64,000 bases of DNA from Fundicoccus culcitae (lineage in GTDB: Bacteria > Bacillota > Bacilli > Lactobacillales > Aerococcaceae). Shown here in pieces: positions 15,814-42,135 of the stretch. Each line of letters starts with the position of its first letter. The stretch's first letter is position 1. The stretch is taken from positions 124,001 through 188,000 of the forward strand of contig NZ_CP102453.1 in assembly GCF_024661895.1 (NCBI RefSeq), written 5' to 3'. Under the pieces are notes generated by a model. That model saw only the letters and a program-made list of their open reading frames with translations, ran no database searches and had not been told where the DNA came from. The position numbers and the translations under genes are program-made.

Positions 15814-16040
15814 AAAAAAGACTGGCTCGCGCCAGTCCCTACAAGGCATCCGGTGATGCCGTCTCCATGCTTACATGTTTTGAACCCGCATTTATATGCA
15901 GGTGGGCTCCACAAACACAATCCCTGACTTCCAAGTGATAAGGCATGTCATCATTATAATTTGACAGGATCCCAAGGTAAAAAATAATTGATCGGTCCAC
16001 ACAATGTAAACACAACGCACATCTCAGACACCTTGTATCT
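15814..16040 (-). ncRNA. ssrS: 6S RNA
   Basis: A minus-strand transcript of about 200 nt plus terminator. A promoter with extended -10 TGATATAAT (16056-16048) puts the start near A16040. The 5' segment ACAAGG pairs with CCTTGT near the 3' end (15841-15846), closing a long rod with a central open region, as 6S RNA requires. The gene ends in a GACTGGC/GCCAGTC hairpin (15820-15837) and six T. Its position next to rarA, with cysteine desulfurase and mnmA beyond, matches the location of a 6S gene in Bacillus. 6S RNA binds the housekeeping RNA polymerase holoenzyme and serves as template for product RNAs. There is no open reading frame. Confidence 0.85.
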
Positions 16041-32515: not shown

Positions 32516-32540
32516 ACTAATTGTCGGTTTTACAATTAGT
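32516..32540 (+). repeat. Inverted repeat in the bacteriocin 5' leader
   Basis: ACTAATTGT (32516-32524) and ACAATTAGT (32532-32540) are perfect nine-base arms around CGGTTTT. The stem would end about nine bases before the ribosome site, so it may protect the 5' end of the mRNA or bind a regulator; no T run follows. Confidence 0.6.
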
Positions 32541-32562
32541 ATATTTTATAAGGAAATTGATT

Positions 32563-32865
32563 ATGAATAAAATCAAACATTTTACTATTTCAATGTTATT
32601 AATAGTAAGTATTGTTTTTACTGGCACAGCACTAGCAGCAACTGTTTATCCTCCTGAAGGTGGTAAATGGAATTATGGCGTAGGATGGAATGGTACTTTT
32701 GGGTATTCTGATTATTTGCAAAGTAGTCGTAGACATTCATCAACTGTAAAAGATAATGAAACGGGAGAAAGCAACAAATCAATTGCTGGAGCTGGAGTTT
32801 GGTCACAAGCTAAATTAAGTAAATTCCCTCCAACTGGTCTAAGTTATTTCTATAACATTGAATAA
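32563..32865 (+). CDS. Lactococcin-972-like bacteriocin precursor
   Basis: A 100-residue secreted protein. A Sec signal peptide (basic MNKIKHF, hydrophobic core, AxA at 23-26) precedes a mature part of about 74 residues without cysteine. The mature pattern GGKWNYGVGW ... YSDYLQSSRRHSSTV ... GAGVWSQAKL ... LSYFYN matches the lactococcin 972 family (W-x-YGV, HSATV, AGVWA, SFYYN). Lactococcin 972 binds lipid II and blocks septum formation in lactococci. I start at 32563, after AAGGAAATT; an upstream in-frame start would break the signal peptide. The two genes downstream are the family's usual immunity/transport partners. Confidence 0.88.
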   Translation: MNKIKHFTISMLLIVSIVFTGTALAATVYPPEGGKWNYGVGWNGTFGYSDYLQSSRRHSSTVKDNETGESNKSIAGAGVWSQAKLSKFPPTGLSYFYNIE

Positions 32866-32874
32866 TACATCACT

Positions 32875-32914
32875 AGACTTAAAAGAAGCTCACTTTTGCT
32901 TCTTTTAAGTCTTT
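32875..32914 (+). terminator. Intra-operon hairpin after the bacteriocin gene
   Basis: AGACTTAAAAGAAGC and GCTTCTTTTAAGTCT are perfect 15-base arms around an eight-base loop, followed by only two T. It likely lets part of the transcripts stop after the precursor gene or protects its 3' end, so the precursor is made in excess over the membrane protein. Confidence 0.7.
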
Positions 32915-32970
32915 AATCGTGTAAAAAGTATTAATTTTCAAATTCATCTTTGAAAGTGAGGTTGCTAATA

Positions 32971-35085
32971 TTGAAAACGATAATCAAAGCAATTTTTGTT
33001 TTATTACTTGTGGTACCAACATTAATGCTAATGAATCTATTTCAAACGAATGATTATGAACGATTGCAAACTATTGAACAGACTGAATTTTCGGAGAATT
33101 TTTATTTAACAGATGCAAGTCAAACAATCGATGAAGTATTGAATGAATTTGCTGAACTCAGCGAGATAAATACAGTTAATATTTTTAAAACGGATAGTTC
33201 TGATGGAGCTATAGTTAAATCCGTTATGTATAATGAGCAGAGTTTTCCGACTGAAAATTTCGGTATTCCAACGGAAACTTTATTTGAAAATACAAGTGAT
33301 GTATATACCAGTTTTGCTGAGGATAGGAATAATATGATTCCAGTATTCTCTAGTCGAAATAAGATCATTCTTCAAACATTAGAGAACAACTACTTAGATA
33401 CTAGTAAATCAGTCAATGGAATCTATACAGTTGTTGCTAACAATAATGAAGATTTAGATCAAACAATGGATAGCTTAAGTGAGTTTTTTGCTATAGATAA
33501 ATCACAGCTAACTAGCCCACCTTTTAAGGGTAAAGTAGGATATATCAATATAAATCTTATACTTATGGTGGTTGTTTTTTGTCTAGCATTTTTAATTTTA
33601 TTGTTATTTATTACTTACTATCCTATAAAAGAAATAAAAGCAATTGGTGTAATGAAATTGCACGGTTATAGTTCACACAAGATAATTTTTCAACTCATTA
33701 AAGAACCACTATTGATTGGTCTTGTAGCTTGTATCATACTATCAGTTGTTATTTTTTCTACAATCAATTATATTCCAGAAAAATTTGTTCTAGCTTTATT
33801 ATTAACATATTTTTTAGTTTTTCAATTATTTTTATTACTAAATTTAGCAGGTTACTTCCTCATTAGAAATGTGACAATTTCTAGTATGTTAAACGGCTTT
33901 TCTAATTTCAAAAGTGGTGTCATTTTAAGCTATATGATTAAAATTGGTCTTGTTGCTATCATTACCCTTATTTTTATTAATCTTTCATTAACTTTTGATG
34001 CAGTTAAAGAACAGTCTGATTATGTTGCCAATTGGGAAAAAGAAGGGGATTTTTTAACTGTAGAAAATTATCGTTTGGATGGGGATAGTGCTCAAAATGA
34101 GTTATTGAGTGACGATGCCTTTGACGCTGTTTTTTATGATCTATTCGTAAGACTTGAAGAAGAAACAAATGCCTATTATGTGCATGGCTTAGAGATTAAT
34201 CCTATTCAAAACTTTTCTGCTTTAGAATCATATTCTTCTTTTACCACAACGGATAGCTATAATGTTATGCTCGTTAATCATCATTATTTAGATTCAATTA
34301 ATATGAGCTATCCAGAGCTCGATTCGAATATACATCAGTTTTTAATACCCGAAAATCTAAGGAATGAAGACGAGAAAATACGATTATTATGTCAAAGTTT
34401 AGTTTACTATTTTTCGTCTTCCAATCAAGTTGAAGACATGATTATTTCTGAAATTCCTGTTCAATTATTCTATTATCAATCAGATTATCAAGTTTTTCCT
34501 TTCAATTCAATGTTATCTGAAGCTTTTGAAAACCCTATTTTCTCAATAGTTAATCTAGATAATATAAGGGATTTTGACAAAGCGATATTAGCAAATACTG
34601 GAGAAAACAATCCTATTAAAATCAATAATACTCTCGAGAACAGATTAATTTCTGAAAACATTTTTGCAGATATATATAACGAACATGATGTAATGATTAA
34701 TTTATCATCATTAAACGTGATTACGCAGGCGATGAGAGACTCATTCATTACGGGGATGAATTATTACATTATCATTATTGTCATATTAATTGTTTTGAAC
34801 CTGTTTTCATCTGCCTTTTTATTTGCAACAATTATTCAAAGTGTAAAAAAAGAACTAGCTGTTAAGAAATTTTTAGGAATAAAAGTGCTGGATCGATATA
34901 AATGGCCTTTATTGAGTTATGTATTGCTTTATTTGATTCAGATGTTAATGATGCTGATATTGAGTCACTCTGTTTGGATTTTACTTGCAGTCCTTTTATC
35001 AATAGCTATTGATTTTCTAGTCGTACTAGTTTTCATCCACTATTTAGAGCAAAAAAGTTTAGTGTTAGCTCTGAAAGAACAATAA
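32971..35085 (+). CDS. Bacteriocin-associated integral membrane protein (lactococcin 972 type)
   Basis: A 704-residue membrane protein. One N-terminal segment (about residues 7-24), an outside domain to about residue 190, a group of membrane segments (about 195-355), a second large outside domain (about 360-590) and a last group of segments to the end fit the seven-TM bacteriocin-associated family found after lactococcin-972-like genes. It resembles an FtsX/MacB-type permease built of two halves and pairs with the ATPase gene downstream, so export or self-protection is likely. The start is probably the TTG at 32971 (AGTGAGG upstream), with other TTG/GTG options at 32950-32962. Confidence 0.8.
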   Translation: MKTIIKAIFVLLLVVPTLMLMNLFQTNDYERLQTIEQTEFSENFYLTDASQTIDEVLNEFAELSEINTVNIFKTDSSDGAIVKSVMYNEQSFPTENFGIPTETLFENTSDVYTSFAEDRNNMIPVFSSRNKIILQTLENNYLDTSKSVNGIYTVVANNNEDLDQTMDSLSEFFAIDKSQLTSPPFKGKVGYININLILMVVVFCLAFLILLLFITYYPIKEIKAIGVMKLHGYSSHKIIFQLIKEPLLIGLVACIILSVVIFSTINYIPEKFVLALLLTYFLVFQLFLLLNLAGYFLIRNVTISSMLNGFSNFKSGVILSYMIKIGLVAIITLIFINLSLTFDAVKEQSDYVANWEKEGDFLTVENYRLDGDSAQNELLSDDAFDAVFYDLFVRLEEETNAYYVHGLEINPIQNFSALESYSSFTTTDSYNVMLVNHHYLDSINMSYPELDSNIHQFLIPENLRNEDEKIRLLCQSLVYYFSSSNQVEDMIISEIPVQLFYYQSDYQVFPFNSMLSEAFENPIFSIVNLDNIRDFDKAILANTGENNPIKINNTLENRLISENIFADIYNEHDVMINLSSLNVITQAMRDSFITGMNYYIIIIVILIVLNLFSSAFLFATIIQSVKKELAVKKFLGIKVLDRYKWPLLSYVLLYLIQMLMMLILSHSVWILLAVLLSIAIDFLVVLVFIHYLEQKSLVLALKEQ

Positions 35086-35112
35086 CTGAATAGGATTGAG
35101 AGGGGAATACAA

Positions 35113-35763
35113 ATGATTGAATTAAAGAATATCAATAAAGCGTTTGGTTCAAAAGCAATTTTAGTTAATGTAAATTTGAATATAGAAAGTGGAGAAATGA
35201 TCGCTTTAATTGGACAAAGTGGATCAGGGAAATCAACACTATTAAATATCATTGGCTTAATCGAACCGTTTGATTCAGGCGAACTTATCTTTAATGGCAT
35301 TAAAAATATCAAAGTTAATTCATCGAAATCTCAAGCAATCATTAGGGACCATATTAGTTATCTGTTTCAAAATTATGCTCTGGTCGATAATGAGACCGTG
35401 TATTATAATTTAGAATTAGCTTTGAAATACGCCAAAAAATCAAAGAACGAAAAGAATAGCATTATTTCAAATATATTAATGAAAGTAGGATTAGCAGATA
35501 CTGAAAATAAAAAGATTTACGAATTATCTGGTGGTGAACAACAAAGAATTGCGATTGCTAGAGCGTTTATCAAACCTAGCGATTTAGTTTTAGCTGATGA
35601 GCCAACTGGATCTCTTGACGCTGAAAATCGAGATAATGTTTTAAAACTAATTATTGAATTAAACAAAAGTGGTAAAACTGTAATCATCGTCACCCACGAT
35701 AATTATGTAGCTCAAGCCTGTTCAAGGATTGTGGATATCCATTCTATTCAAACCATAAAATAG
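35113..35763 (+). CDS. ABC transporter ATP-binding protein (lactococcin 972 type)
   Basis: A 216-residue ATPase of the MacB/LolD type. Walker A GQSGSGKST (about residue 35), the Q loop YLFQNYALVDNETV, signature LSGGEQQRIAIARA, Walker B LVLADEPTGSLD and the His loop IIVTHD are complete. It lies 27 bases after the membrane protein gene and is the natural energy partner for it. The RBS is AGAGGGGAA. Together the three genes form one bacteriocin/immunity unit. Confidence 0.88.
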   Translation: MIELKNINKAFGSKAILVNVNLNIESGEMIALIGQSGSGKSTLLNIIGLIEPFDSGELIFNGIKNIKVNSSKSQAIIRDHISYLFQNYALVDNETVYYNLELALKYAKKSKNEKNSIISNILMKVGLADTENKKIYELSGGEQQRIAIARAFIKPSDLVLADEPTGSLDAENRDNVLKLIIELNKSGKTVIIVTHDNYVAQACSRIVDIHSIQTIK

Positions 35764-35809
35764 TAAAACAGTGCTGGTCAGTTATCTATTAACATGTGTT
35801 CGAAAAAAT

Positions 35810-35856
35810 TCTCCCCCTTAAAGCGTGTCAAAGACATAGCGATAATTAGGGGGAGA
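35810..35856. repeat. Unexplained GC-rich inverted repeat
   Basis: TCTCCCCCT (35810-35818) and AGGGGGAGA (35848-35856) are perfect nine-base arms with a 29-base loop, without a following T run. It stands out in an AT-rich gap of 456 bases after the bacteriocin operon. It might be a remnant of a mobile element or a weak terminator; I recognise no transposase fragment. Confidence 0.5.
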
Positions 35857-35948
35857 TAAAACGTGTTTAGGTCAATTCTTTATTTTAACAGAGCTAAAAA
35901 TAGGCTTTCACTTATAATTGGTCTTGTTTGCAACTATCCTAAGTTAAT

Positions 35949-35977
35949 TTGACAATCATTTATTCTTAGCCTACAAT
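35949..35977 (+). promoter_or_regulatory. Promoter of the heterodimeric ABC exporter operon
   Basis: TTGACA (35949-35954), 17 bases and TACAAT (35972-35977). It lies about 240 bases before the first ABC gene, leaving an unusually long leader. Confidence 0.75.
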
Positions 35978-35991
35978 ATTAATTGGTGTAA

Positions 35992-36036
35992 ATGTTGGTT
36001 CGTGTATTAAGTGATAAGTTTCGTGCCTTTGTGTAG
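35992..36036 (+). CDS. Possible 14-residue leader peptide
   Basis: ATG at 35992 opens a 14-codon frame (MLVRVLSDKFRAFV) ending in TAG at 36034-36036. It begins only about eight bases after the predicted transcript start, with just GGTG as a ribosome site, so translation is uncertain. Its stop codon touches the first base of the hairpin at 36035-36058, an arrangement expected for a ribosome-sensing attenuator. In Bacillus subtilis the bmrCD exporter genes have a leader peptide gene, bmrB, with such a role. Confidence 0.4.
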   Translation: MLVRVLSDKFRAFV

Positions 36037-36058
36037 CTTGGGGCGTTTCAAGCTTTTT
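36035..36058 (+). terminator. Attenuator-like hairpin 1 in the exporter leader
   Basis: AGCTTG (36035-36040) pairs with CAAGCT (36049-36054), followed by five T. It is short but of intrinsic-terminator form and starts in the leader peptide stop codon. Confidence 0.5.
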
Positions 36059-36115
36059 GCTTATGGAACAACTCAATATGCTATTTATAGCAAATGAATT
36101 CTAGAGAATTTTATC

Positions 36116-36145
36116 AGTTTTTTAGCTGTTAAAAAACTCTTTTTT
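36116..36145 (+). terminator. Attenuator-like hairpin 2 in the exporter leader
   Basis: AGTTTTTTA (36116-36124) and TAAAAAACT (36130-36138) are perfect nine-base arms followed by CTTTTTT. It lies 75 bases before the first exporter gene, downstream of the only promoter I see. Confidence 0.6.
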
Positions 36146-36219
36146 ATTTGCTTCAATACTATTTTTGGCTCAAGAGATAGTTAATTGAAAGAAACAAAAC
36201 GGAAGAAAGAAGGGACTTT

Positions 36220-37938
36220 ATGTTAAGAATATGGAAATTGATGGATAAAAAAAATCTTATCAAAATATTCCTGCTAATTTTATTTGAAGCAACGATGTTC
36301 ATGCTACTACCCACACTCGCTTCAGATATATTAAATTATAGTGTGGTGGATGGTAACCCTCAGACTGTTTGGCTGATTGGGATTATTATGCTTATCCTAA
36401 ATGTACTTGCTTTAGTCTTAGCCTTTATTAGTGTTAAAATGAGTGCTAAAGAATCACAAGGCTTAGGTCATAAATTGCGGATGGATATGTTTGAAAGAAT
36501 CATGGCGTTCTCACAAGAGGATATGGCAAAATTTGGGACGTCAACCTTAATCACACGGACTACCAATGATGTGATGCAAATACAATTAGTCACGCAAATG
36601 ATTATTCGATTAATTATTTTATCGCCTGTCATCATGATAGTATCGGTATTTTTTGCCTATCAAAGAGAATCACAACTGGCTTGGGTTTTCGCAATTACTC
36701 TACCCTTAATCCTAATCGTTGTAGGTATTATCCTCTACTTTGCTAGTCCTATCTTCCGTTCAATACAAAAGAAAACCGACCGTTTAAATAAAGTTTTTCG
36801 TGAAGGATTGACTGGGATTCGTGTTATTCGAGCATTCAATACGACTGAATATGAAGAGCAACGTTTTGACGATGCCAATATCGATTTTCGAAACGCATCG
36901 ATTAAAGCCAATTCAATTATGGCCTTTATGTTGCCGGGAATGTTGCTAGTAATGGCTGTTTCCAATTCACTCATATTTTTAAATGGTGCTAATTTAATTA
37001 GTGTTGGCGAGATGGAAGTTGGGAATTTGATTGCTTTTGTTCAATATGGTGTTCAAATTTTGAACAGTGTGTTACAAGTAGCCTTTTTACTCTTTTTCTT
37101 ACCTAGAGCCCAAGTTTCCGCTGAACGTATTTTAGAAGTGATTGATACTGAACCTTCGATAGAAGATTTAACCAAAGAAGTGGATGTTTTAGACGATAAA
37201 GAAGTTACCTTAGCCTTTGAACATGTCGATTTTGGCTTTCCAGGAGCTGAACGTCCAGCCATCGAAGACATTAATTTCTCAGCTTCTAAAGGCGAAACGA
37301 TTGCGATTATCGGAGGAACAGGTTCAGGGAAAACAACTATTGCCAACCTCATTCCCCGTCTATATGAGGCCAGTAAAGGGAAAGTTCGTGTCAATGGTGT
37401 CAATGTAAAAAACGTCCGTCAAGAAGAGTTACGTTCTAAAATAGGTTTTGCCCCTCAAAAAGCTTTATTATTTTCAGGTACAATTCGTTCAAATATGCAA
37501 TATGGTAAAAATGATGCCACTGATGCAGAAATCTGGAAAGCCTTAGAAATTGCACAAGCTGATTTTGTTAAAGAACTCGATGATCTCTTAGATGCAAAAG
37601 TTGACCAAGGTGGGGTTAATTTCTCAGGTGGACAACGACAACGACTAAGTATTGCACGAACGATTATTAGTCAACCAGACATATTTGTTTTTGATGATAC
37701 ATTCTCAGCACTGGACTTTAAGACGGATGCCAATCTTAGAAAAGCCCTAAAGCCTATCACGCGTGATGCAATCACTATTATCATTGCTCAAAGAGTCAAT
37801 ACCGTCATTGATGCCGATCGCATTTTAGTATTAGAAAATGGAAAAATTGTTGGTGAAGGTACCCATCAATCATTATTGGCAGAAAATGCGGTTTATCAAG
37901 ATATTGTCGCATCACAAATGAAAGGAGAGAATAGATAA
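36220..37938 (+). CDS. Heterodimeric multidrug ABC exporter, subunit with degenerate ATP site (BmrC/LmrC-like)
   Basis: A 572-residue half transporter: six membrane segments (about 1-310), then an ATPase domain. Walker A GGTGSGKTT and signature FSGGQRQRLS are normal, but Walker B reads FVFDDTFSALD, with Asp in place of the catalytic Glu, and the switch His is Gln (IIIAQRVNTV). Such changes mark the non-catalytic partner in heterodimeric exporters such as BmrCD, LmrCD and TM287/288. Its stop overlaps the next start by one base. Substrates are probably hydrophobic drugs, by analogy only. Confidence 0.88.
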   Translation: MLRIWKLMDKKNLIKIFLLILFEATMFMLLPTLASDILNYSVVDGNPQTVWLIGIIMLILNVLALVLAFISVKMSAKESQGLGHKLRMDMFERIMAFSQEDMAKFGTSTLITRTTNDVMQIQLVTQMIIRLIILSPVIMIVSVFFAYQRESQLAWVFAITLPLILIVVGIILYFASPIFRSIQKKTDRLNKVFREGLTGIRVIRAFNTTEYEEQRFDDANIDFRNASIKANSIMAFMLPGMLLVMAVSNSLIFLNGANLISVGEMEVGNLIAFVQYGVQILNSVLQVAFLLFFLPRAQVSAERILEVIDTEPSIEDLTKEVDVLDDKEVTLAFEHVDFGFPGAERPAIEDINFSASKGETIAIIGGTGSGKTTIANLIPRLYEASKGKVRVNGVNVKNVRQEELRSKIGFAPQKALLFSGTIRSNMQYGKNDATDAEIWKALEIAQADFVKELDDLLDAKVDQGGVNFSGGQRQRLSIARTIISQPDIFVFDDTFSALDFKTDANLRKALKPITRDAITIIIAQRVNTVIDADRILVLENGKIVGEGTHQSLLAENAVYQDIVASQMKGENR

Positions 37939-39880: not shown

Positions 39881-41881
39881 TTAAACATGTTCTCTTTCAA
39901 CTAAATGTGTTTTACGTACTTCACCAATATATAACGGGATTGTTTCATATTGTACTTCACTGTATTCTAAACCAAACCAATGATCCAATGAAAGGGTATG
40001 ACGCTTAATGAACAACTTAATTTGCATCACTTGTTTGTCGAGTTTAGAAAGAACCGTTGTTTGTGACAATGATTCTTGAATAATAACAAATTGGAAATCG
40101 CCCACTTGACGGTTAGGTGTTATAGAGTAACGTTGCGGTTGCTTAGGAATCCGTCCTTCTTTCATTAAATCATGGATAATTTGACGAATATAGATATTGA
40201 CTTCTTGAGGAACTCTAAAACCAAGGTAAAATTTGACCATGACAATATAATCCGTCCCGAGCGTATCGACTTCAAATTCTTGCGTATAAGGGGTATCAGT
40301 CACCTCGACGTTAACAAACCAATAGACTTTTGCCTTTTTTGGACTTTTATCCAAAATAGAATAAATAAATTGACGACCAATCAAATTATTTTCTATACTT
40401 GGCACAAGAAAAACAATGTTGGTTTGTGTTAATGGTAGCGAATCATCGTCATGTAAAGCATCAATTTGATCAAGATACTCACGTATATCGACATTGACGG
40501 CAGCTTTTTCTTTTATTTCATTACCTTTTTGCCAAATGACCATAATGAACAAAATAATTAAAGCCATTAAGACCGCTACAAAGCCACCGTGGAAAAATTT
40601 AACGATACTCGTTAAGAAAAAGACACTTTCAACAACAGCAAAAAATAAGGTTAAAACATGCGCGAAGATTTTTGAATAACCCTTTTGAATGAGGTATTCA
40701 TGCAATAACAAAGTCGTCATTAGCATCGTGACCGTAATAGCTAAACCATAAGCAGCTTCCATGTTACTTGATGTTCTAAAAGTAATAACAATCATTGAAC
40801 ACACAATCCATAAAATAAAATTCACAACCGGAATATACATTTGTCCAATACTTGAACCCGGGTATAAAATATGCAACCGTGGTAACAATTTTAATTTAAT
40901 CGCTTCGGAAACTAAGGTAAATGATCCGGATAATAAGGCTTGTGAGGCAATAATGGCTGCAACAGTGGTAAAAATAACACCAGCTAACATCCAACTATCA
41001 GGCAACATATTAAAGAAGGGGTTTAATTGTTCGACCTTTAAATAATTAACATCATCTTTAACACGGAGGATCCATGCTGCTTGACCTAAATAATTTAGGG
41101 TCAAACAAATTTTTATATATGGCCAACTAAAACGAATATTTTGTTTGCCAACATGCCCCATGTCTGAATAGAGTGCTTCCGCACCCGTTGTTGCTAAAAA
41201 AACATTCCCTAAAATAAATATCCCTAAATGATTTTCGGCACTAAATAAGATTTTAAAGGCATACACAGGATTTAAAGCGCGAATAACCGACAAATCTTGA
41301 CTGAAATTCAACAAACCAGCGACAGCTAAGAAAGTAAACCAAATTAGCATGATTGGACCGAAAGCCTTACCGACTTTTTCTGTACCAAAGCGTTGTATGG
41401 AAAATAAAATTAGCAAAATAAGTAATGTAATGATAATAATCGTGTTTTGGTTGTTTCCAAATCGCTGATAAAATGACGGAATATCTCTTAGTCCTTCAAC
41501 AGCTGTCGTAACCGTAACCGCTGGTGTTAAAACACCATCGGCTAATAGGGCTGAACCACCAACCATAGCAGGAATAATTAAATACTTTGAACCTTTTCGT
41601 ACCAAAGTATATAAAGAGAATATCCCTCCCTCGCCATGATTATCCGCATTTAAAGCAATAACAACATATTTTATTGTGGTTAATAACGTTAAAGTCCAAA
41701 AAATAAGTGAAACAGCCCCTAAGATAAAATCAGTTGAGACGGAGGCTAAACCACCATTTCCTGCAATAATCGCCTTCATAACATATAAAGGACTTGTACC
41801 AATATCTCCATAAACTACGCCCATCGCAACTAATAAACCACCTAATGATAATTGATTATGTCTTTGTTCATTCTTTTCCAT
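39881..41881 (-). CDS. kup: Potassium uptake protein Kup
   Basis: A 666-residue proton-coupled potassium transporter of the KUP/HAK/KT family. The N-terminal LGALGVVYGDIGTSPLY motif (here LLVAMGVVYGDIGTSPLYVMKA), about 12 membrane segments in residues 15-450 and a cytosolic C-terminal domain are present. I start at the second ATG (41881), because GGAGG lies seven bases before it and inside the longer alternative beginning at 41893. It is monocistronic. No ydaO-type c-di-AMP riboswitch is seen upstream. Confidence 0.95.
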   Translation of the reverse strand: MEKNEQRHNQLSLGGLLVAMGVVYGDIGTSPLYVMKAIIAGNGGLASVSTDFILGAVSLIFWTLTLLTTIKYVVIALNADNHGEGGIFSLYTLVRKGSKYLIIPAMVGGSALLADGVLTPAVTVTTAVEGLRDIPSFYQRFGNNQNTIIIITLLILLILFSIQRFGTEKVGKAFGPIMLIWFTFLAVAGLLNFSQDLSVIRALNPVYAFKILFSAENHLGIFILGNVFLATTGAEALYSDMGHVGKQNIRFSWPYIKICLTLNYLGQAAWILRVKDDVNYLKVEQLNPFFNMLPDSWMLAGVIFTTVAAIIASQALLSGSFTLVSEAIKLKLLPRLHILYPGSSIGQMYIPVVNFILWIVCSMIVITFRTSSNMEAAYGLAITVTMLMTTLLLHEYLIQKGYSKIFAHVLTLFFAVVESVFFLTSIVKFFHGGFVAVLMALIILFIMVIWQKGNEIKEKAAVNVDIREYLDQIDALHDDDSLPLTQTNIVFLVPSIENNLIGRQFIYSILDKSPKKAKVYWFVNVEVTDTPYTQEFEVDTLGTDYIVMVKFYLGFRVPQEVNIYIRQIIHDLMKEGRIPKQPQRYSITPNRQVGDFQFVIIQESLSQTTVLSKLDKQVMQIKLFIKRHTLSLDHWFGLEYSEVQYETIPLYIGEVRKTHLVEREHV

Positions 41882-42135
41882 TTTATCCTCCATTAATTAA
41901 ATGAACTATTGTAAAATAGGTGATAAATATTTCCTTTATCGCGAATTTAGCAACAGAATGATTATGAACCTTTTTTTAAAAGAATCAAGTAGGTTATCCT
42001 CAATAAAACGCTTTATTTAAAAATAAATATCTCTATTTTCCATTAGCTCAATTTATTGATACAATGAAGGTATGAGAGAGTGGGTCATGTTAATTGCTAG
42101 AAACTGTTTGAATTTATACGAAAGGCGTTTTATAT

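Follow-up and report, generated by a model that had tools for sequence, protein, structure and literature searches.

According to the accessible part of its source, the patAB exporter of Streptococcus pneumoniae is held down by a terminator in its leader (PMC4319486). The stem-loop was predicted to be part of a terminator/anti-terminator set, and a leader peptide is not mentioned in that part of the report (PMC4319486). The patAB type is recognized by an intrinsic terminator between the promoter and the exporter and by stem mutations that raise exporter expression. The bmrBCD type is characterized, among other features, by the required translation of the leader and by induction with 50S-targeting drugs. 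For the small frame rli80, both translation and requirement were demonstrated in the accessible part of the respective report (PMC6310831). The window analysed here is a stretch of 64,000 nucleotides, located at 124001-188000 in a genome of one contig with 3,224,940 bases, in which a 240-nt leader precedes two genes for ABC half-exporters. We consider the chance to be about even that this leader is a premature-termination brake (attenuator-type, PatAB-like) on the TM287/288-like exporter and has taken the place of a TetR repressor that was lost. The comparison collection contained one genome in the genus of the window, 76 in its family (its own included) and 395 in its order.

The exporter subunits were compared with solved structures. 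For subunit 1, 8wcw_A gave 459 bits, TM287 gave 402 and BmrC (YheI) gave 256; for subunit 2, TM288 gave 482 bits and BmrD (YheH) gave 320. By sequence comparison, the exporter is of the heterodimeric, broad TM287/288 kind. Orthology with BmrCD was ruled out because TM287/288 (and 8wcw_A) outscored YheI/YheH, and the BmrCD label of the first-pass annotation was dropped. The genes behind this leader are thus not the BmrC/BmrD orthologues that are controlled in the bmrBCD type. The NCBIfam cut-offs were reached by neither half-exporter among the best 25 of 184 and 185 families, respectively. Seven plasmid matches were obtained (three in Enterococcus, three in Listeria and one in Fusobacterium). 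A bacteriocin operon was located upstream of the exporter at 32521-35763, which encoded a lactococcin-972 family peptide (PF09683) and a bacteriocin-associated membrane protein with its ABC ATPase.

The features of the leader are summarized in Table 1. The first-pass annotation had placed a near-consensus promoter approximately 240 bases 5' of the exporter; this was confirmed, as the distance from the -10 box to the exporter ATG (36220) was 242 bases. Promoter-like sites were not enriched in the region (4 in 35300-36400 vs 4.6 expected), and none was listed by the consensus scan between T2 and the exporter. The transcription start was assumed at 35984, which was 7 nt past the -10 box. The whole leader folded slightly better than its shuffles (z -2.04; 10 of 200 were as good). 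The Shine-Dalgarno sequence of the exporter paired with the 16S tail at -10.3 kcal/mol and was unpaired in the centroid fold. At the Rfam gathering score, no cis-regulator (T-box, riboswitch) was found in the window, where the only hits were a tRNA and a 6S RNA; the latter (RF00013, 62.2 bits) was at window positions 15843-16033 on the minus strand. At a relaxed threshold over 35760-36260, there was again no cis-regulator, and five matches were at chance level (E 1.4-9.8).

Table 1. Features of the exporter leader and the genes behind it (window positions; energies in kcal/mol).
Feature	Position	Strand	Evidence and remarks
Sigma-70-type promoter	35949..35977	+	Consensus scan, 11/12; -35 TTGACA 35949-35954, spacer 17 nt, -10 TACAAT 35972-35977
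14-codon leader frame MLVRVLSDKFRAFV	35992..36036	+	Sequence; ATG 35992, stop TAG 36034-36036 at T1 base; weak Shine-Dalgarno, relatives not found
T1, weak terminator-like hairpin	36035..36054	+	-7.0, d -12.7; 36036-36042 paired with 36047-36053, then TTTTTGC
Anti-T1 hairpin, exclusive with T1	36045..36069	+	-7.6, folding; 36045-36053 with 36059-36069
Second small frame MLFIANEF (speculative)	36078..36104	+	13-codon form from ATG 36063; TAG at T2 base; weak or no Shine-Dalgarno
Larger hairpin around T2 that also pairs its T run	36089..36152	+	-20.1, probability 0.98 in RNA to 36160
T2, terminator-like hairpin	36104..36145	+	-8.2, d -1.6; hairpin 36104-36139, T run 36140-36145
Third hairpin, before ribosome binding site	36158..36181	+	-6.2
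ABC half-exporter 1, 572 aa	36220..37938	+	Nearer TM287 than BmrC
ABC half-exporter 2, 604 aa	37938..39752	+	Nearer TM288 than BmrD

A strong inverted repeat (CTCCCCC/GGGGGAG) was also observed at 35790-35875, with a stem at approximately 35810-35857 and a T run after it on the minus strand. Its folding energy was -20.3 kcal/mol, with a z of -2.68, and was equalled by 4 of 200 shuffles. The nearest minus-strand gene seen, Kup (39881-41893), ended 4 kb off, and a second copy of the stretch was not found in the same genome. The repeat may terminate an antisense RNA that was not seen, or it may be the remnant of a mobile element.

The strength of T1 and T2 as terminators was evaluated by a d'Aubenton-Carafa-type score, and every hairpin followed by a T run was scored. 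T1 begins at the stop codon of the MLVRVLSDKFRAFV frame, and T2 follows 68 nt later. The consensus terminator scan listed T1 and did not list T2. In the window and 14 further stretches of 20 kb (688,000 strand-bases), 101 sites reached a d of 0. The median best d of the tail-to-tail gaps with any scored site was 20.9, vs -1.6 for T2 and -12.7 for T1; of all 32 tail-to-tail gaps, 23 contained a site at least as good as T2 and 26 one as good as T1. The T2 and T1 scores were reached by 4 and 7 of 52 divergent leaders and by 2 and 10 of 138 long reading frames, respectively. Among 1000 dinucleotide shuffles of the leader, a T2-like site occurred in 42, a T1-like site in 150 and both in none. Hence, the pair is unlikely to occur by chance, with thresholds that were chosen post hoc, and each hairpin is weak for this genome. 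The second hairpin had been described earlier as perfect. A core of eight A/U-rich pairs (36117-36137, just -4.0 kcal/mol) followed by TTTTTT does exist, but its probability was 0.00 unless a ribosome was on the second frame, and its bases prefer the longer imperfect hairpin within the larger one.

The 14-codon frame with a stop codon entering the first hairpin, as reported in the first-pass annotation, was recovered at the expected place. An ATG frame of at least 8 codons that ended within 3 nt of the T1 start was found in 151 of 5000 shuffles, and one that started within 20 nt of the inferred transcription start was found in 744 of 5000. With this start site, the 5' UTR of the frame would be approximately 8 nt. 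Its start region paired with the 16S tail at -4.8 kcal/mol, a value equalled by 17% of 3000 random positions. The peptide was compared with 581 small frames taken from 47 regions upstream of exporters, and nothing resembled MLVRVLSDKFRAFV beyond the level of shuffles; the best score was 24, which was equalled by 107 of 200 shuffled peptides. This comparison spans other genera, since the genus of the window is represented by one genome, and it includes the related loci L022-L043, in some of which the aligned start falls inside the gene. The conserved leader peptide that had been looked for was therefore not found in other genera.

The folding of the leader was calculated with a ribosome footprint of 14 nt past the first P-site base; these are equilibrium folds from an assumed start rather than kinetics. 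T1 and anti-T1 share bases and exclude each other. In the RNA to 36060 without a ribosome, the probability of T1 was 0.72. With a ribosome, it was 0.02-0.29 when codons 1-4 were in the P site, 0.80-0.91 for codons 5-10, 0.24 for codon 11 and 0.00 for codons 12-15, and the value of codon 11 ranged from 0.90 to 0.00 across footprints of 11-18 nt. The response of T1 varied by codon; hence, some stall positions are predicted to prevent T1 and others to favour it. In the RNA to 36075, T1 was 0.18-0.58 with the ribosome at codons 1-4, and anti-T1 was 0.90-0.96 at codons 5-13, 0.69 at codon 14 and 0.34 at codon 15 (stop). Without a ribosome, T1 (0.00) and anti-T1 (0.01) were both near zero in this RNA because other pairings win. 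The probability of T2 was 0.96-0.97 in all 16 conditions, wherever the ribosome stood on the MLVRVLSDKFRAFV frame, so a stall on that frame alone could not fully prevent termination. A K/R-x-K/R motif arrests macrolide-bound ribosomes, and on the sequence K9-F10-R11 of MLVRVLSDKFRAFV a macrolide stall is expected with Phe10 in the P site. At this position, T1 remained at 0.87-0.91 with footprints of 11-16 nt and was blocked from 17 nt (0.24, then 0.02). The proposal that a drug-stalled ribosome prevents termination thus stands in part: T1 is predicted to be lost at late, and perhaps very early, stalls, but not at middle stalls, and T2 is not lost.

The second small frame, MLFIANEF, abuts T2. 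A frame abutting T2 was found in 239 of 5000 shuffles, and frames abutting both T1 and T2 in 7 of 5000. When a ribosome occupied the stop or the last codon of this frame, T2 fell to at most 0.07 (footprints 12, 14 and 16), and the short T2 core rose to 0.81-0.98 in five of six cases and to 0.21 in the sixth. For footprints of 14-16 nt alone, T2 was at most 0.05, and the core reached 0.86-0.98 in three of four cases. Anti-T1 covers a GGAA, which is a possible start signal of this frame. A two-stage relay could be built on these values, in which frame 1 ends on T1, frame 2 ends on T2 and the attenuator replaces the TetR repressor. A stall at the very end of frame 1 would cancel T1, weaken anti-T1 and free frame 2, and T2 would then be cancelled once a ribosome stands where frame 2 ends. 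The calculated folds agree with this relay in part, and we regard it as very unlikely.

Orthologues of the exporter were collected at E <= 1e-195, which gave 26 of the 395 genomes of the order, the window's included. The others were 53-64% identical to the window's exporter, and 11 related loci at 24-47% identity were left out as too distant. A TetR-type gene was directly upstream (overlapping or at most 109 nt from the called start) in 19 of the 26, and all 19 of these scanned genes matched TetR_N and TetR_C_19. The seven TetR-less orthologues belonged to five genera and comprised the window (L014), L015, L016-L018 (one genus), L019 and L044. One orthologue-linked TetR protein was used as the query for ten genomes, namely the seven TetR-less ones and three controls. 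In the controls, TetR was found beside the exporter (G122, itself; G047, 36% identity; G029, 25%). In the seven TetR-less genomes, nothing was found but two weak matches with an E of about 2e-5, in the window's genome (G000; 66 residues at 27%) and in G024 (with an internal stop).

In a FastTree phylogeny of 29 sequences, the seven TetR-less copies were in one branch of nine (support 0.995) with two TetR-linked copies. The inner order was partly unsupported (0.18), so one TetR loss and several are indistinguishable. The outgroup consisted of three of the loci L022-L043, which are below the orthologue cut-off. TetR was upstream in all three of these copies, and TetR-linked copies were present in both main branches; the TetR linkage therefore looks older. 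In an Enterococcus faecalis plasmid relative, the gene directly upstream was also annotated as TetR.

In five of the seven TetR-less genomes (L014-L018), which represented three of the five genera, a terminator-like hairpin came after a promoter-like site that matched 9-11 of 12 consensus bases. The hairpin d scores were -1.6, 15.6, 19.0, 6.4 and 17.8, respectively. This type of leader was absent in the other two TetR-less genera: the hairpin of L019 (d 9.6) was 21 nt past the preceding gene and ahead of its promoter, and that of L044 (d -10.6) was approximately 306 nt upstream and ahead of its promoter-like sites. The new observation is that TetR is directly upstream in most orthologues and that leaders with a promoter and a terminator-like hairpin are present in most TetR-less ones. 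This apparent swap of regulators is a more solid and more useful observation than peptide sensing. A sequence common to the leaders of the three genera was not found. In the genus of L016, L017 and L018 (g6), all three genomes had a terminator-like hairpin approximately 70 nt before the exporter and after a TTGACT-17-TATAMT promoter, and the three leaders aligned over the hairpin; judged on these features, they are cleaner candidates for an attenuator than the leader in the window. The first ATG frames past the -10 box in these leaders had two, four and three codons (ME, MNKL and MNK), L017 alone had an extra 15-codon frame running into the hairpin, and a frame common to all three was not found. 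Leader frames of just a few codons have been described for ABCF resistance genes (MIN, MK[L/Q], MR[I/M] and MAGN, in the accessible part of PMC10201436), so the tiny g6 frames are not evidence against translation there.

Other exporters of the window's genome were also inspected. Ahead of a paralogous exporter at 1503522-1505264 (L072), there was a strong hairpin of -16.6 kcal/mol that started at -90, and a T run was present at -41. By eye, a terminator-like hairpin was seen after the gene preceding the exporter at 96547, and no obvious leader was seen for the exporter at 1893157. The leader DNA itself had no relatives among plasmids, and within its own genome it matched, besides itself, just 39 short words with an E of 0.2 or worse. 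Matches to 35 phage records (34 Acinetobacter and one Xanthomonas) were taken as chance; the best 20 of the 35 had an E of about 0.5 and covered query positions 413-449 or less. In the order, 23 of 395 genomes matched at E <= 0.01, the window's own included. Of the 23 matching places outside the window, 22 were covered (all but the one in G299), and these look like chance words because 21 were within open frames of at least 120 codons and one (L107) was at the end of an antisense gene.

In the preferred reading, the leader acts as a brake by premature termination. The strong promoter would fire, and T1 and T2, as weak intrinsic terminators, would stop some polymerases and let the others read on into the exporter genes. 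T1 would be cancelled by any factor that occupies its 5' arm, the most direct case being a ribosome on codons 12-15. Anti-T1 competes with T1, so the time in which T1 could act would be brief and would end once the anti-T1 sequence has been transcribed; anti-T1 may thus matter for control. T2 would be a second limit, independent of the MLVRVLSDKFRAFV ribosome. The leader occupies the position that TetR has in most orthologous operons and therefore probably took over from that repressor. The weakness of both hairpins for this genome speaks against a brake, and 27 of 60 same-strand gaps longer than 120 nt (the window's own included) reached the T2 score and 34 the T1 score. Further points against it are that the leaders of the three genera have no sequence in common, that two of the five TetR-less genera do not have this kind of leader, and that T1 and anti-T1 were both near zero in the ribosome-free RNA to 36075. 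Such gaps between genes often hold a site, and from 35763 to T1 there was no other plus-strand site at d > -25; T1 and T2 could therefore simply end the upstream operon. They would then be late terminators of the lactococcin-972-type bacteriocin operon that insulate the exporter, or chance hairpins, and the exporter promoter would work without regulated termination. We hold this to be unlikely, since T1 and T2 start 272 and 341 nt past the stop of the upstream gene and lie behind a near-consensus promoter whose transcripts would run into them, and the scan listed no promoter-like site between T2 and the exporter. The structured leader might instead act on RNA stability, on exporter translation or through the binding of a protein or small ligand. 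The large hairpin at 36089-36152 and the third hairpin near the ribosome binding site would suit such a role, but the Rfam matches did not rise above chance and the exporter Shine-Dalgarno was unpaired, and we give this explanation hardly any credence.

Ribosome-mediated attenuation through MLVRVLSDKFRAFV is possible but doubtful, and antibiotic sensing by this peptide is a minority reading. A ribosome at codons 12-15 would cover the 5' arm of T1, anti-T1 would form (best at codons 12-13), and the exporter would be transcribed. The likeliest drugs would be phenicols or oxazolidinones, which would stall the ribosome when Phe13 is in the P site and Ala12 is the penultimate residue. This position gave a T1 of 0.00 and, in the RNA to 36075, an anti-T1 of 0.95. 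In the short RNA, T1 would be reduced by stalls at codons 1-4 as well (0.02-0.29). Alanine at position -1 favours chloramphenicol and linezolid stalls, in Firmicutes too, according to the accessible part of PMC8987054. As far as their sources were accessible, precedents are BmrB and, for hflXr, the rli80 frame of 14 residues, and the stop codon at the T1 base was matched in few shuffles (151 of 5000). The peptide reading is opposed by a T2 that stayed at 0.96-0.97 at every position, by a Phe10 stall that left T1 at 0.87-0.91, by the weak Shine-Dalgarno sequence and by the comparisons, in which a related peptide was not found and the three g6 leaders had no common frame. What stands of the attenuator-like leader first proposed is a leader that starts from a promoter, contains terminator-like hairpins, both of them weak, and is predicted to fold into either T1 or anti-T1.

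The assignment of the window's leader to an already known kind of transcription-attenuation leader is plausible but weak. No paper on this leader was among the literature matches listed, which is weak evidence of novelty. The following likenesses refer to the accessible parts of the cited reports. The window's leader resembles bmrBCD of Bacillus subtilis in that a heterodimeric ABC exporter is preceded by a small frame and by stem-loops that are alternatives to each other (PMC4191407). BmrB, however, has 53 codons with the terminator inside the coding region, whereas the window's frame has 14 codons with T1 at its stop (PMC4191407), and the window's exporter is not a BmrCD orthologue. An exclusive terminator and anti-terminator, as in the bmrBCD type, was predicted for T1, and for T2 only with a ribosome on the second frame. 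The 14-residue leader frame and exclusive hairpins recall rli80-hflXr of Listeria monocytogenes, which controls a ribosome-splitting factor and has RLR in its peptide, whereas the window's peptide has K-F-R (PMC6310831); the RLR motif of rli80/erm-type macrolide leaders is thus not present in MLVRVLSDKFRAFV. The ABC-leader of Lactobacillus gasseri and L. johnsonii, which belong to a related Gram-positive group, precedes a multidrug export operon and was predicted to work by an anti-terminator and a terminator; it has a conserved motif, and its likeness to the window's leader is one of description, not sequence (PMC2965389). With patAB, the window shares a leader terminator stem-loop before a heterodimeric ABC multidrug exporter (PMC4319486). 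The difference is that the window's leader has two predicted terminators between promoter and exporter, both weak (d -1.6 and -12.7), and this likeness is again by description, not sequence. Leaders with a promoter-like site and a terminator-like hairpin before the orthologous exporter are present in two other genera besides the window's.
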